Assembly (NCBI GenBank): GCA_016213435.1
Contig: JACRAL010000074.1
Location: forward strand, 1-45,422
DNA length: 45,422 bases
Reading direction: 5' to 3'
DNA from: Bacteroidota bacterium
Lineage (GTDB): Bacteria > Bacteroidota > Bacteroidia > Palsa-948
The notes below the pieces were generated by a model. It was not told the origin of the DNA. It ran no database searches and saw only the letters and a list, made by a program, of their open reading frames with translations. This document shows positions 127-44,604 of the stretch, piece after piece. The position numbers and the translations under genes were made by a program. Position 1 is the first letter of the stretch; each line of letters begins with the position of its first letter.

Positions 127-427
127 AACCTGGTTGTTGATGTTTTTTTTAGGTATTGTAACAATGCGGCAACTTATCCCATCTCCCATCCCCGCATCTC
201 GGTGGTTTTAGTGCGCTAAAATGTTTTGGCAATGGAAAAGGTGGTTTTAATTTGCACAACCGCCATATTAAAACCGGATAATATACTTGTCGCCCCGCCT
301 GCCTGATTCTTGGCAAGGATATTTTGCCAAATCGGAGTGAGTTCTCTTACATTTGGCAAGATGTTTTTTCTCATAGATTTCATCATTTACTAAATTATTG
401 TCTGTTTTTCATCATTCAGAGGGGTGG
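127..427. other. Intergenic stretch without a gene
   Basis: I see no convincing gene here. The stretch contains a small inverted repeat of TTGGCAA / TTGCCAA around 312-332, and a further TTGGCAAG near 354. It leads directly into the 21-bp array. An open frame starting at 324 only exists because the array beyond it has a period divisible by three. Confidence 0.5.
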
Positions 428-702
428 CTTGGATCCAATAAATCAATTCCACTATCCAATAAATGAGTTCCACTATCCAATAAATGAGTTCCACTATCCA
501 ATAAATGAGTTCCACTGTTCAATAAGCCTGTTCCACTGTTCAATAAATGAATTCCACTATTCAATAACTGAGTTCCACTATCCAATAAATGAGTTCCACT
601 GTTCAATAAGCCTGTTCCACTATTCAATAAATGAGTTCCACTATCCAAGAAATGAGTTCCACTGTTCAATAAGCCTGTTCCACTATCCAAGAAATGAGTT
701 CG
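428..702. repeat. 21-bp tandem array no. 1 (about 12 units)
   Basis: The octamer CCACTATC or its variants CCACTGTT and CCACTATT recurs at exactly 21-bp steps, starting at 449, 470, 491, 512, 533, 554, 575, 596, 617, 638, 659 and 680. Two sub-unit types alternate irregularly: one continues CAATAAATGAGTT, the other CAATAAGCCTGTT. The period is a multiple of three, so open frames run through it on both strands, but neither looks like a real protein. It lies between the plus-strand gene end at 126 and the 3' end of the caspase-like gene at 793. A similar 21-bp array is at 39157-39356 and a third at 18560-18777. Confidence 0.95.
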
Positions 703-18529: not shown

Positions 18530-18559
18530 TCTTTAATAATTGGCAAATTGGTCTCTTAT

Positions 18560-18777
18560 ATTGAATAATTGATATTTGATATTGAATAAGTAGTCCACGA
18601 CAATGAATAATGTATATTAGGTATTGACTAAGGAAGTTATGGCAATGAATAAAGGATATTAGATACTCACTAAAGAAGCTCTTACAATGAATATAGGATA
18701 TTAGATATTCACTAAAGAAACTATCACAATGAATAATTGATATTAAGTGTTCACTAAATAATCTCTATGATTGAATA
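18560..18777. repeat. 21-bp-phased array no. 2 (about 10 half-units, 42-bp period)
   Basis: Sub-unit a (AATGAATAA...GATATT) begins at 18560, 18602, 18644, 18686, 18728 and 18770, exactly 42 bp apart. Sub-unit b (ATTCACTAAAGAA...) begins at 18581, 18623, 18665, 18707 and 18749, exactly halfway between. The underlying phase is therefore 21 bp, as in the arrays at 428 and 39157, although the sequence is more AT-rich. The array ends 69 bp before the start codon of the XRE-type regulator, in the interval between two plus-strand genes. Confidence 0.92.
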
Positions 18778-18845
18778 CTTTTTAGCTGAGGATGTGTTTA
18801 TTTAAAGAAAAACACTATTTTCGTAAGCACAAACACACATTTACC

Positions 18846-19199
18846 ATGCTGCAATACAATCTGACCAAGATATTTCAGTCGCGGGGAATAGAAAAACCCT
18901 ATGCTTTCTTAAAGAAACAGGGTTTCAGCCATAACCTTGCGCACCGCATCGCACAAAACAAGATAGATATGCTTTCGCTTGAGCATTTGGAAAAGCTATG
19001 CACCCTGCTTAGCTGCACCCCCAACGATCTGCTGGATTGGTTTCCTAAAAAAGAAGACGAAACAGCAGCCCGTCATCCTTTAAACGCATTGCGGAGAGCA
19101 ATAACAACCGTAGATCTGCCCGCCTTTTTGCGCGAAACGCCTCTGCATAAACTACAGGAACTGCAAACAATGCTTGATCAATTGCGAAAAGATAAGTAA
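18846..19199 (+). CDS. XRE-family helix-turn-helix regulator
   Basis: The product from ATG at 18846 is 117 residues. Residues ~1-65 form a Cro/C1-type helix-turn-helix (LTKIFQSRGIEKPYAFLKKQGFSHNLAHRIAQNKIDMLSLEHLEKLCTLLSCTPNDLLDWFP), followed by a linker and a Leu-rich helix that may dimerise. An upstream in-frame ATG at 18792 would add 18 residues (MCLFKEKHYFRK...) that do not look like the family, so I use the inner start. It would bind DNA as a dimer; the array immediately upstream is a possible operator, which is a guess from position. Confidence 0.82.
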   Translation: MLQYNLTKIFQSRGIEKPYAFLKKQGFSHNLAHRIAQNKIDMLSLEHLEKLCTLLSCTPNDLLDWFPKKEDETAARHPLNALRRAITTVDLPAFLRETPLHKLQELQTMLDQLRKDK

Positions 19200-39013: not shown

Positions 39014-39151
39014 ATGATATCATTCGGATTTGAATATGCTCCTCCTCCCTCCAAAAAGGAGATGAACATGCTGAAAGCTGATCTGCTTAAGCAGAAAGCA
39101 ACTTCAGGTAAGAAGGAGAAAAAGAAGATCATTAAGAAGAAAAAGAAATAA
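39014..39151 (+). CDS. Small lysine-rich protein, family copy 1
   Basis: A 45-residue frame from ATG at 39014: MISFGFEYAPPPSKKE, then a helical segment and a very lysine-rich tail (KKEKKKIIKKKKK). It is paralogous to the small gene at 44691-44888, whose first sixteen codons differ in only five positions, all at the first codon base. It may bind nucleic acid or acidic surfaces through the tail, but no function is known. It lies 233 bp before the duplicated-domain gene, with the 21-bp array in between. Confidence 0.6.
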   Translation: MISFGFEYAPPPSKKEMNMLKADLLKQKATSGKKEKKKIIKKKKK

Positions 39152-39156
39152 AAAAG

Positions 39157-39356
39157 ATGCACCGTAACCCTTTATCTGAAGAGCAAAACCCATCATCCGG
39201 GCACCGTAACCCTTTATTTGGAGAGGAAAACCTATTATCTGAGCAGCAAAACCCACTATCTGAGCAACAAAACCCATTATCTGAGCAGCAAAACTCACTA
39301 TCCGGGCAGCAAAACCCACTATCCGGGCAGGAAAACTCATTATCTGTGCTCTAACC
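39157..39356. repeat. 21-bp tandem array no. 3 (nine units)
   Basis: The octamer CCACTATC or its variants (CCATTATC, TCACTATC, CCTTTATC) begins at 39169, 39190, 39211, 39232, 39253, 39274, 39295, 39316 and 39337, in strict 21-bp steps. The rest of the unit (TGAGCAGCAAAAC) differs from array no. 1. A 65-residue open frame from 39157 with LSEQQNP repeats runs through it, but its composition follows directly from the repeat, so I do not call it a gene. It ends 28 bp before the start codon at 39384. Confidence 0.93.
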
Positions 39357-39383: not shown

Positions 39384-40625
39384 ATGGCAGCTAACAATGT
39401 AAGAGTAATCATCCCCGACAATGCGGCAGAACTCATTCTGCTTTCGCAAGACATCCTTGATAAACATACGGCAGACGGGGCGGGCAGCAAACTCAGCGGC
39501 TTAAACATGGCGGATATGCAAATTAAAACCACCCTTGCCGACACTCAGCATGTTTTAGCCGGAAACCTGAGCCGCGATGCCGAAACCGCCACACAGGAAC
39601 GCGACCTCGCCCTGGGAGCGGCAGAAAGTTTTTTACCCGGCACCGTGCTATTTTATATTACTTCCATCCGTGATTTTCTGCTGGGCAGATTCAGAGGCAG
39701 AGAACAGCGCTTGGGCGATTGGGAATATGAAGTGAATGAAGCATCAGACGGATCCATCACCATTGAAATTCCTGCAAAGGCAGCCGACCTGATAACGCTT
39801 GCCAAAGGCATACTTGCCAAACACACGGCAGATGGAGCAGGCACCCTGCTTACTGCTTTTGACATGGCAGATATGCAGCTTAAAACCACCACTGCCAAAA
39901 CCCAGCACACCTTAGCCGGAAAATTAAACCGCGATGCCGAAACCGCCACCCAGAAACGCGACCTCGCCCTGGGGCATGGCAAAAAACAAAACTCCACTAC
40001 CCCTGGCACCGTGTTGTTTTATGTATCTTCGGCAAGAGATATACTGATGGGCATTTTCAGAGGCAGGGAACAAGAGTTGGGCGACTGGGGATTTTCAGTA
40101 GATGCCAGCACAGCGCCACCTCCGCCTTCAGCAGGCATTGTCAGCATCACTTCCAACCAAAGCACCCTCAGTGGCATGCCGCTGGAAATAAGTATCAGCG
40201 GCAATCTTTCGGCAAGCGGAGGAGGAATACTTGCCACATGGGAACCGGGAATCACCAACTCTGCTGATCTCACAGCAGGAGGCACCATCGTTTTTCAGCA
40301 TGTGTATACCACCACCGGAATAAAAACCATAACAGCTGCCGAAGTAACTCCCGGAGTGTTTCGCACAGTTTCAGCATTGCAGATGCCCAATGTGAAAGCA
40401 ACCGCCATTACCCTCAGCGGTGATTTCAGCGAGGCAACCACCTTTAACTTTTATGGCAACGATATTTCATTAACCAATATGTATGCGCTCATCACCCAGA
40501 TAAATGATTACGGAACAAGCGGAGGACAGCTTAATATTTCGGGAGGCACCATGCCTGTTCCCGATCCTGCATTTCCGGCACTCATCGCATTAAGAAGCAG
40601 AGGATGGGTGGTAACAACGAATTAA
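39384..40625 (+). CDS. Duplicated-domain protein of unknown function
   Basis: The 413-residue product contains two copies of a ~115-residue domain (about 8-118 and 128-245). Each copy reads roughly A-x-L-I-x-L-A/S-x-x-I-L-x-K-H-T-A-D-G-A-G, then N/D-M-A-D-M-Q, T-Q-H-x-L-A-G, RDAETATQ-x-RDLALG, PGTVLFY, and FRGREQ-x-LGDW. The remaining ~165 residues are an Ig-like or cadherin-like segment and a short repeat end (NMYALITQINDYGTSGGQLNISGG). There is no signal peptide, which is odd beside secreted proteins. I do not know a named family for the repeated domain. Confidence 0.8.
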   Translation: MAANNVRVIIPDNAAELILLSQDILDKHTADGAGSKLSGLNMADMQIKTTLADTQHVLAGNLSRDAETATQERDLALGAAESFLPGTVLFYITSIRDFLLGRFRGREQRLGDWEYEVNEASDGSITIEIPAKAADLITLAKGILAKHTADGAGTLLTAFDMADMQLKTTTAKTQHTLAGKLNRDAETATQKRDLALGHGKKQNSTTPGTVLFYVSSARDILMGIFRGREQELGDWGFSVDASTAPPPPSAGIVSITSNQSTLSGMPLEISISGNLSASGGGILATWEPGITNSADLTAGGTIVFQHVYTTTGIKTITAAEVTPGVFRTVSALQMPNVKATAITLSGDFSEATTFNFYGNDISLTNMYALITQINDYGTSGGQLNISGGTMPVPDPAFPALIALRSRGWVVTTN

Positions 40626-42265: not shown

Positions 42266-43549
42266 ATGACCAAACGCACACTGTTTATATGGCTCATGTA
42301 CATCTTTTTCATCCCTCTCCTTTGGAGCGGAACAGAGGCGTTTGCCCAATTTACAGGAGGAGATGCAGATGGTTTATCTTATAGTATGTTAACGCAAGGA
42401 ATATGCACTCCCGGCAACAATAATATTTATATGGGAGGAACGGCAGACGGATTCTCTTACAGCAACATCTCACAAGCATCATGTGTACCCGGCAACAATA
42501 ATATTTATTCTGGTGGAACAGCGGATGGGTTTTCTTACAGCAACATAACACAAGTATGCGGCAGTATACCTGTTCAGGCAACTGTTACCGTAACCACACA
42601 AAACATGTGCAGCGGGCAATGCACAGCAACAGCAAGCGCAGCAGCAACAGGAGGCAGTGCGCCTTACACATACAGTTGGAATTCCATACCGGTGCAGGCA
42701 ACAAAAATTGCTACAGGGCTTTGTGCAGGCACCTATTCTGTATTGGTTACCGATTCAAACAGCAAAACCGATACTGCTGCAGTAATAATTAATCAACTCA
42801 CGGCTTTAACTGCCACTGTAACATCCATCGAAGCCGCTTGCATAAACAATAATGGAACAGCAACAATAACACCGGGTGGAGGAACACCCGGCTACACTTA
42901 CAGTTGGAACAACGGACAAACAACCACAACAGCAACCGGGCTTGCCATTGGAGATTATACAGCCACTGTAACAGATGCTAATGGATGTTCGTACATACAA
43001 CCTGTGAGCGTAATGCAAACACCCACGCAGGCAGTATCGGCCACTGCAAGTTCCTATGCAATTACATCAGGTGACAGTACAACACTTACTGCCGGTGGAG
43101 CAGGATATTATCAATGGTCTCCTTCTACAGGGTTAAGCTGCAGCACTTGCGCTAATACAACAGCAGGACCATTACAAACCACTGATTATTGTGTTACGAT
43201 TACAGATACTATTAGCGGCTGTTCCGATAGCGCTTGCATTACACTCACTCTTCTTCAGGAGTTGTGTGAAGTTTATATTCCCAATGCTTTCTCTCCCAAT
43301 GCAGATGGTCAGAACGACCTTCTGAAAGTACATGGTGATTGTATCAAGGAACTTAGTTTTATCATCTATGATCGCTGGGGTGAAAAGGTTTTTGAAACAA
43401 CCGATTTGTCCATCGCTATGATAAAAGGATGGGATGGCATTTACAAAGGGAAGCCGTTGAATACAGCGGTATTTGTTTATTATTTCACTGCCAGCTTAAA
43501 TAATGAAACACCCGTTGAACTAACAGGAAATATAAGTTTATTGCGGTAG
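42266..43549 (+). CDS. T9SS type B (gliding-motility-associated) surface protein with 26-residue repeats
   Basis: The 427-residue product has a signal peptide ending TEAFAQ. Three repeats of about 26 residues follow (GGTADGFSYSN...CVPGNNNIY), then SprB-like repeats (TATASAAATGGSAPYTYSWN, TPGGGTPGYTYSWNNGQ) and a C-terminal domain starting LCEVYIPNAFSPNADGQNDLLKV with YDRWGEKVFET. This is the gliding-motility-associated or type B sorting domain, which directs export through the T9SS and attachment by SprF-like partners. The 26-residue repeats are shared with the next gene, which carries a type A domain instead. Confidence 0.9.
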   Translation: MTKRTLFIWLMYIFFIPLLWSGTEAFAQFTGGDADGLSYSMLTQGICTPGNNNIYMGGTADGFSYSNISQASCVPGNNNIYSGGTADGFSYSNITQVCGSIPVQATVTVTTQNMCSGQCTATASAAATGGSAPYTYSWNSIPVQATKIATGLCAGTYSVLVTDSNSKTDTAAVIINQLTALTATVTSIEAACINNNGTATITPGGGTPGYTYSWNNGQTTTTATGLAIGDYTATVTDANGCSYIQPVSVMQTPTQAVSATASSYAITSGDSTTLTAGGAGYYQWSPSTGLSCSTCANTTAGPLQTTDYCVTITDTISGCSDSACITLTLLQELCEVYIPNAFSPNADGQNDLLKVHGDCIKELSFIIYDRWGEKVFETTDLSIAMIKGWDGIYKGKPLNTAVFVYYFTASLNNETPVELTGNISLLR

Positions 43550-43572: not shown

Positions 43573-44604
43573 ATGAATATAAAGAATCATACAGCGATCT
43601 TTATTCTGCTTATAGTATCTTCCCTCCCCTTTGGGGAGTCCCGATGGCTATCGGGATGGGGAGGAGCTTTGTATGCCCAATTTATAGGAGGTAGTGGAGG
43701 TGGTTTGGCATACAGCATATTCACACAAGGAGTATGTGTGCCCGGCAACAATAATATTTATCTGGGAGGAACAGCAGACGGATTTTCTTATAACACCTTC
43801 ACACAAGGAGTATGTGTGCCCGGCAACAACAATATTTATCTAGGAGGAACGGCAGACGGATTCTCTTACAACACCTTCGCACAAGGAGTATGTGTGCCCG
43901 GCAACAACAATATTTATCTGGGAGGAGATGCAGACGGGTTTTCTTACATCAATATCATACAAGGCGTATGTGTACCGGGTAACAATAATATTTATATGGG
44001 CGGAATAGCAGACGGATTTTCTTACAGCAACATCGAACAAACAAACTGTAGCTTACCTATTGAACTACTTTTTTTTACTGCCGTTCTTACTGCGGACAAA
44101 CAAGTGCTTTGCCAATGGGAAACAGCCAGTGAAAGCAATAACGATTATTTCACCATTGAAAAAACCAAAGATGATAGTCAATATGCCTTTGTAGGAAAGA
44201 TAAAGGGGGGGGGAAACAGCAATGTTACGCTTGCCTATCAATTAATAGATGCGGATCCTTATAAGGGCACATCGTACTACCGGCTGAAACAAACAGACTT
44301 TAATGGAGCATACACTTATTCTCAATTAGTGCCTGTAAATTTAAACGGGGTTGAAATTATCAGCATCTTTCCGAATCCGGCTCACGATAAGTTTGAATAT
44401 GAAATCGGGAGCACAGAAAAAATGACATTGCAAGTAAAGGTTGTGAATTTACTCGGACAAATAACAATCAACGAAACAAAAAGCATAGATAAAGGCATCA
44501 GCAATCATACCTTAAATGTTTCTACCCTAAGCAGCGGAAGTTATTTGTTGCAGATAACCAACGGCAACCTTGAAAAAACACAGAAACAGTTTGTGATAAG
44601 ATAA
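43573..44604 (+). CDS. T9SS type A surface protein with five 26-residue repeats
   Basis: The 343-residue product begins with a signal peptide interrupted by a palindromic repeat (43621-43665, encoding SLPFGESRWLSGWGGA). Five repeats of the form GG-x-ADGFSY-x-x-x-QGVCVPGNNNIYLG follow, the central three almost identical at the DNA level (78-bp period). Residues ~170-250 have a fibronectin or adhesin-like beta-fold with CQWETASESNNDYFTIEKT. The C-terminus IISIFPNPAHDKFEYE...LLQITNGNLEKTQKQFVIR is a type A T9SS sorting domain. It should be released or lipid-anchored on the cell surface. Confidence 0.9.
   Translation: MNIKNHTAIFILLIVSSLPFGESRWLSGWGGALYAQFIGGSGGGLAYSIFTQGVCVPGNNNIYLGGTADGFSYNTFTQGVCVPGNNNIYLGGTADGFSYNTFAQGVCVPGNNNIYLGGDADGFSYINIIQGVCVPGNNNIYMGGIADGFSYSNIEQTNCSLPIELLFFTAVLTADKQVLCQWETASESNNDYFTIEKTKDDSQYAFVGKIKGGGNSNVTLAYQLIDADPYKGTSYYRLKQTDFNGAYTYSQLVPVNLNGVEIISIFPNPAHDKFEYEIGSTEKMTLQVKVVNLLGQITINETKSIDKGISNHTLNVSTLSSGSYLLQITNGNLEKTQKQFVIR

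Follow-up and report, generated by a model that had tools for sequence, protein, structure and literature searches.

Why should two distant intergenic regions of one contig carry tandem repeats with the same 21-bp period but with different sequences? In the window (the whole stretch of DNA analyzed here, 45,422 nucleotides), an array at positions 39159..39346 of the forward strand (array 2) shares its period with an array at 433..701 of the reverse strand (array 1). Intergenic tandem repeats are usually set aside, either as junk or as small repeat proteins predicted in error. The initial annotation proposed that the units of both arrays carry an octamer, CCACTATC, maintained by selection on this core or by a generating process with a fixed period.

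Repeat Units of Array 2

Array 2 consists of about nine 21-bp direct repeats of the type CAAAACCCAYTATCYGRGCAG, as established by TRF, unit listing and lag score. TRF returned periods of 21, 42 and 63 bp, the last two being super-periods, with 0-1% indels. From position 39169, the array runs as nine nearly indel-free units that keep the 21-bp phase, in agreement with the first description. Its best self-match lag score was 92 vs. a shuffle maximum of 15.6, and thus lies far over chance. A 65-codon ATG-to-TAA frame (39157-39354) covers the array and agrees with the span originally reported (39157-39356). The array sits closely 5′ of a gene at 39384-40625. Upstream of it lies a small Lys-rich ORF of 45 amino acids (39014..39151, forward strand, MISFGFEYAPPPSKKE...KKKKK); comparison of relatives revealed similar ORFs 5′ of the paralogues L036 and L051, and in part at L039.

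The octamer reading for the most part did not withstand closer analysis. Exact CCACTATC is present in only two of the nine units (at 39253 and 39316), and the remaining units show looser variants, e.g., CCTTTATC and TCATTATC. In none of four arrays is the octamer the best-conserved part of the unit: among the 21 possible unit windows it ranks second in array 2, sixth in array 1, and seventh and fourth in two relatives. Its direction relative to the adjoining gene is opposite in arrays 1 and 2. When the own genome was scanned for CCAYTRTY at 21-bp spacing, only arrays 1 and 2, the array-2 relatives on contigs C156 and C169, and two isolated, chance-like places were found. The two window arrays are far from being the only such loci, since dozens of arrays exist; the octamer does not recur in these others. 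An octamer is common to about 2% of array pairs by chance, and within the genome 5 octamer-sharing pairs were counted vs. 1.3 expected (P 0.005). Across 22 arrays, no core motif was shared, and their joint alignment was no better than the control with reversed arrays.

3′ of the array-2 locus, two secreted-type proteins (SprB repeat with CHU_C tail; Por secretion tail) contain 78-bp in-frame repeats at 42410-42554 and 43720-44026.

The Adjoining Gene and Its Superfamily

The gene to which array 2 belongs (39384..40625, forward strand) encodes a protein of 413 amino acids with two copies of a predicted helical domain, a proline linker and a conserved beta C-terminal domain. Searches of Pfam, NCBIfam and PADLOC assigned it to no family above cut-off. 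The gene has 22 matches within the genome, mostly to the common C-terminal domain, and its product is a member of a modular, unannotated superfamily combining a helical N-domain with a beta C-domain. The N-domains are predicted to be helical, and the model of a single-domain member, the 138-aa product at L066, reached a mean pLDDT of 86.7. In longer members, a linker and then a variable beta domain come after the N-domains, and two proteins (L206, L222) carry a CarboxypepD_reg domain. For the full window protein, the model can be trusted in the C-terminal part alone, the N-half being of low confidence. This protein is acidic, with a pI of 5.3 for its N-part.

No library named the N-domains, and Pfam and NCBIfam scans recognized no DNA-binding family in them. 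The N-domain model gave no convincing structural relative by fold search, and comparison by sequence with solved structures gave no match. Likewise, no relative of the window protein was found in the phage and plasmid records searched, nor any match of the A4 domain alignment in IMG/VR or of the A5 domain among PADLOC defence families. The superfamily is patchy: three queries retrieved it from 16, 16 and 19 of 395 genomes of the class, often in several copies per genome. A scan of genome contigs yielded two named relatives only. An array beside a homologue is present in two named MAGs, L102 (Bacteroidota bacterium) and L101 (Verrucomicrobia bacterium).

Relation Between the Two Window Arrays

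Array 1 comprises 12.8 units of 21 bp (TRF, lag and unit data, and a relative at C196) and stands 5′ of a fragmentary copy from the same gene family (234..371, reverse strand); this copy matches residues 7-52 of the 39384 product with 52% identity (E 1.4e-4). The longer array of array-1 type at C196 is likewise located 5′ of a stretch that looks like the beginning of the gene. The intact gene after array 2, the fragment after array 1 and the similar layout at C196 indicate that a single gene, in different copies, accompanies both arrays. Thus, the proposal that the two distant regions form one family was correct, but what links them is the adjoining gene and not the octamer. It was also right that the period was kept while the sequence was not. 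Compared over whole units, arrays 1 and 2 are only weakly similar (z 2.0).

A hybrid array (L002, C156:5081-5350) begins with the 5′ flank of array-1 type and a single such unit, continues with array-2 units and ends with the array-2 3′ flank, which matches the array-2 locus as far as ATGGCAG, the gene being lost beyond. Arrays therefore recombine. This hybrid, together with the arrays at C156 and C169 which stand alone without a gene, favors the idea that an ancestral array beside an ancestral gene was merely inherited, its period being kept automatically by unequal exchange and the array itself having no function. The paralogues L058 and L063, which have flanks and end units in common and differ in their middle units, show the concerted-evolution pattern that such an origin would leave. 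Near-identical paralogues can bear different unit sequences, and sister arrays retain a sparse common pattern.

Beside array 1, positions 793-2790 encode a caspase-like (Peptidase_C14) protein.

Linkage of Arrays to Genes and Periods of the Arrays

The paralogues in the same genome have differing arrays closely 5′ of their starts, and homologues from other genera and families of the class, picked by protein similarity alone, also have arrays. Within 500 bp upstream of the gene, we found an array for 31 of the 38 members of the starting set and, in two N-domain families not used in finding the rule, for 17/23 (L052 type) and 19/24 (L042 type), vs. 11 of 657 control genes, drawn at random from contigs sampled in six genome groups. 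Some of the loci are not independent, since L081 and L093 have an array in common and L092 is close to L100. In the starting set, a significant periodic segment of any kind was detected in these 500 bp for 35 of 39 genes, and in 33 of these 35 it was 21 bp or a multiple, counting 41 and 62. Members without an upstream array often had one directly downstream (L051, L067, L069, L218, L219, L231, L263).

The period was 21 bp in the first two N-domain families and 42 or 41 bp in the L042 type, where lag 21 was not a leading signal, i.e., there is no 21-bp sub-period. The array period follows the N-domain family, and neither the genome nor the repeat's own sequence. Indeed, gene-linked arrays of 21 bp and of 41/42 bp coexist in the same genomes (e.g., G000, G009, G091, G123, G127, G182), and this split by family makes it doubtful that a generator acting genome-wide is the only cause. 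The initial suggestion of a fixed-period process nevertheless holds in part: tandem-repeat periods in this genus are mostly multiples of 7 (7, 14, 21, 42, 63), in 38 of 60 cases in G000 and 12 of 17 in G001, as counted in L103-L142, which are random own-genome contigs totalling 415 kb, and in L163-L169. The excess was smaller in most other sampled genomes. What the generator does not account for is that the period of gene-linked arrays tracks the protein family across many genomes.

This genus-wide richness also fits the functionless inherited array, and co-inheritance of array and gene would by itself make the period follow the family even if nothing bound the repeats. The persistence of arrays in most members, in many families of the class and in the Verrucomicrobia MAG, is however hard to explain without selection, as is the retention of dyads in old 41/42-bp arrays described below. 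We therefore regard a functionless array as a serious rival, although a rather doubtful one.

Dyads, RNA Structure and Coding Potential of the Units

The 41/42-bp units are self-complementary (Stouffer z 14.5; 11 of 26 at p < 0.01) and contain two dyad centers about 21 bp apart. Arrays of 21 bp gave weaker dyad signals (4.0 and 2.7), and many had no significant dyads. Mismatches at dyad pairs were G-T in 122 cases vs. A-C in 144; this lack of a G-T excess speaks for double-stranded DNA rather than RNA. Significant inverted segments were detected in 12 of the 43 arrays tested, and units in both orientations were most evident at L102, L082, L226, L066 and L068. No 10.5-bp harmonic was found inside the units, and a 7-bp harmonic was weak.

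These data bear on a second serious rival, according to which the repeats are transcribed and every unit is an RNA ligand of the neighboring protein, comparable to type III toxin-antitoxin systems or TIGR guide arrays. Locus-specific repeats up- or downstream of one gene do resemble ToxIN (PMC8860590) and TIGR-Tas (PMC12045711), and some 41/42-bp units would make good hairpins. Four arrays (L036, L040, L066, L048) also fold better than their column-permuted versions. Over all arrays, however, nested folding brought no gain vs. permuted arrays (mean whole-array z -0.2), an Rfam search of the arrays gave no match, and neither a Nop domain match nor unique spacers were found. Besides, the dyads without G-U excess and the occurrence of both unit orientations in some arrays do not suit an RNA. 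An RNA array is thus unlikely in our opinion.

The open frame over array 2 is not isolated. In 10 of the 12 own-genome loci, array 2 included, the array is covered from end to end by an ATG frame, vs. 4.0 expected after unit permutation and 6 in antisense, and at two loci (L102, L052) the frame starts with a signal-peptide-like stretch. The array might accordingly be a small gene for a repeat protein of 7 or 14 residues per unit, made together with the downstream protein. Yet enrichment was not clear in other genomes (6/15 vs. 3.8 expected), and the open frames showed no codon constraint: synonymous changes amounted to 42/210 (20%) in frame vs. 82/422 (19%) off frame, and variable columns had no mod-3 bias (combined p 0.85). 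Moreover, many arrays contain stops, and several have a period of 41 bp, which is not a multiple of 3 and excludes a steady reading frame. A translated repeat peptide is consequently very improbable, despite the own-genome excess of open frames.

A Possible Two-Part Module

In the reading that we prefer, with a probability of roughly 0.4, array and adjoining modular protein gene together make up a two-part module, to which the array contributes the cis-acting DNA; its phased sites would be bound while their letters drift by concerted evolution. In favor of it are the gene linkage, the family-specific period, the dyads, the changes of orientation inside some arrays and the negative codon and general RNA-fold tests, together with end units that are conserved between paralogous loci whose middle units differ (L058, L063). 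Such modules would carry tandem DNA sites at two helical turns (21 bp, direct) or at four (41-42 bp, with two alternating dyads about 21 bp apart), a spacing that would place every site on the same face of the helix. A protein would assemble on this lattice, most likely the neighboring gene's product by way of its helical N-domain, or else a partner, and such an assembly would explain why the period tracks the N-domain family. Unit letters would be replaced as a block through unequal exchange between units, so that period and register would persist while the sequence becomes locus-specific. We infer the binding itself, the identity of the binder and the purpose, which could be autoregulation, DNA anchoring or another nucleoprotein assembly.

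Several observations count against DNA sites: the unrecognized N-domains, the acidic window protein, the many 21-bp arrays devoid of significant dyads and the lack of a 10.5-bp harmonic. In addition, the different units borne by near-identical paralogues disallow a strict sequence-specific recognition by the product, barring a structural or partner-based readout.

We found no description of such gene-linked arrays in the open-access literature, and judged against that literature only, the evidence points to an undescribed partnership of array and gene. More tentatively still, these may be widespread two-part modules of Bacteroidota and at least one Verrucomicrobia MAG, in which the type of helical domain sets a locus-specific site spacing in whole turns, and in which the spacing, not the sequence, is heritable. 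If this is true, dozens of differently lettered modules coexist, many of them in one genome, and they may serve as private addresses for each paralogue. In genomes outside the set from which the rule was formed, the array can be predicted from the neighboring protein and its period from the domain type of that protein. Thus, anonymous repeats and anonymous genes become a testable pair, of which the spacing, not the sequence, appears conserved.

Comparison With Known Systems

Plasmid iterons (RK2, P1, F, R6K, pPS10) are replicon-specific direct repeats of 17-22 bp beside the gene of their cognate protein, and a half-turn separation of two iterons abolishes cooperative binding (PMC4980987). The exact 21-bp direct repeats upstream of a gene, at about two helical turns, are similar here. 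In contrast, neither a Rep nor a winged-helix family was recognized (Pfam, NCBIfam), relatives of the window protein are absent from plasmid records, many copies are located on large chromosomal contigs, and the period, exactly 21 or 41-42 bp, depends on the protein family.

Type III toxin-antitoxin systems (ToxIN, CptIN, TenpIN) have a cluster-specific repeat array directly 5′ of a single gene (PMC8860590). Our loci differ in other repeat lengths, in that no general nested RNA fold was detected, in the lack of a conserved terminator between array and gene, and in that no ToxN/AbiQ-like endoribonuclease was matched (PADLOC with the A5 domain, Pfam, NCBIfam). In TIGR-Tas, arrays lie 5′ or 3′ of one gene, with repeats that are uniform within a locus, differ between loci and are palindromic in some clades (PMC12045711). 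The units here measure 21 or 41-42 bp vs. about 36, are near-identical within young arrays and do not alternate with unique 9-nt spacers, and Pfam scans of the families gave no Nop domain. The likeness to iterons, to ToxIN and to TIGR-Tas thus fails each time because the protein family does not match.

In centromeres of the ParR/parC type, tandem direct repeats precede a gene whose small, helical product binds DNA. The loci described here have a similar layout, but no ParM/ParA partner gene and no ribbon-helix-helix match were recognized.

Other Arrays and Array Neighborhoods

A third array in the window (18546-18758) has a 42-bp period with 21-bp traces and lies 5′ of a Cro/C1-type HTH gene (18792-19199) which is outside the modular family. 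A second family of small proteins (82-94 amino acids, 6 copies, DGSGWAVKRV near the C-terminus), for which no Pfam family was found above cut-off, is encoded directly beside 21-bp arrays (L146:5293-5541, L133:9872-10156, C163:45896-46138).

Rho-independent terminators beside arrays are striking at some loci, and are not general. At six loci (L080, L081, L092, L100, L199, L202), the array is directly preceded by a hairpin that resembles a terminator and has a T run; this suggests that the array fills the gap from the end of the upstream gene to the next start. L062 and L079, whose genera belong to separate families of the class, share a conserved leader of about 300 bp with a terminator-like hairpin, followed by a degenerate 21-bp array. 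Finally, long (CA)n microsatellites precede the otherwise identical arrays of L081 and L093 (positions ~975-1055), and their repeat numbers differ between these two genomes of one genus.
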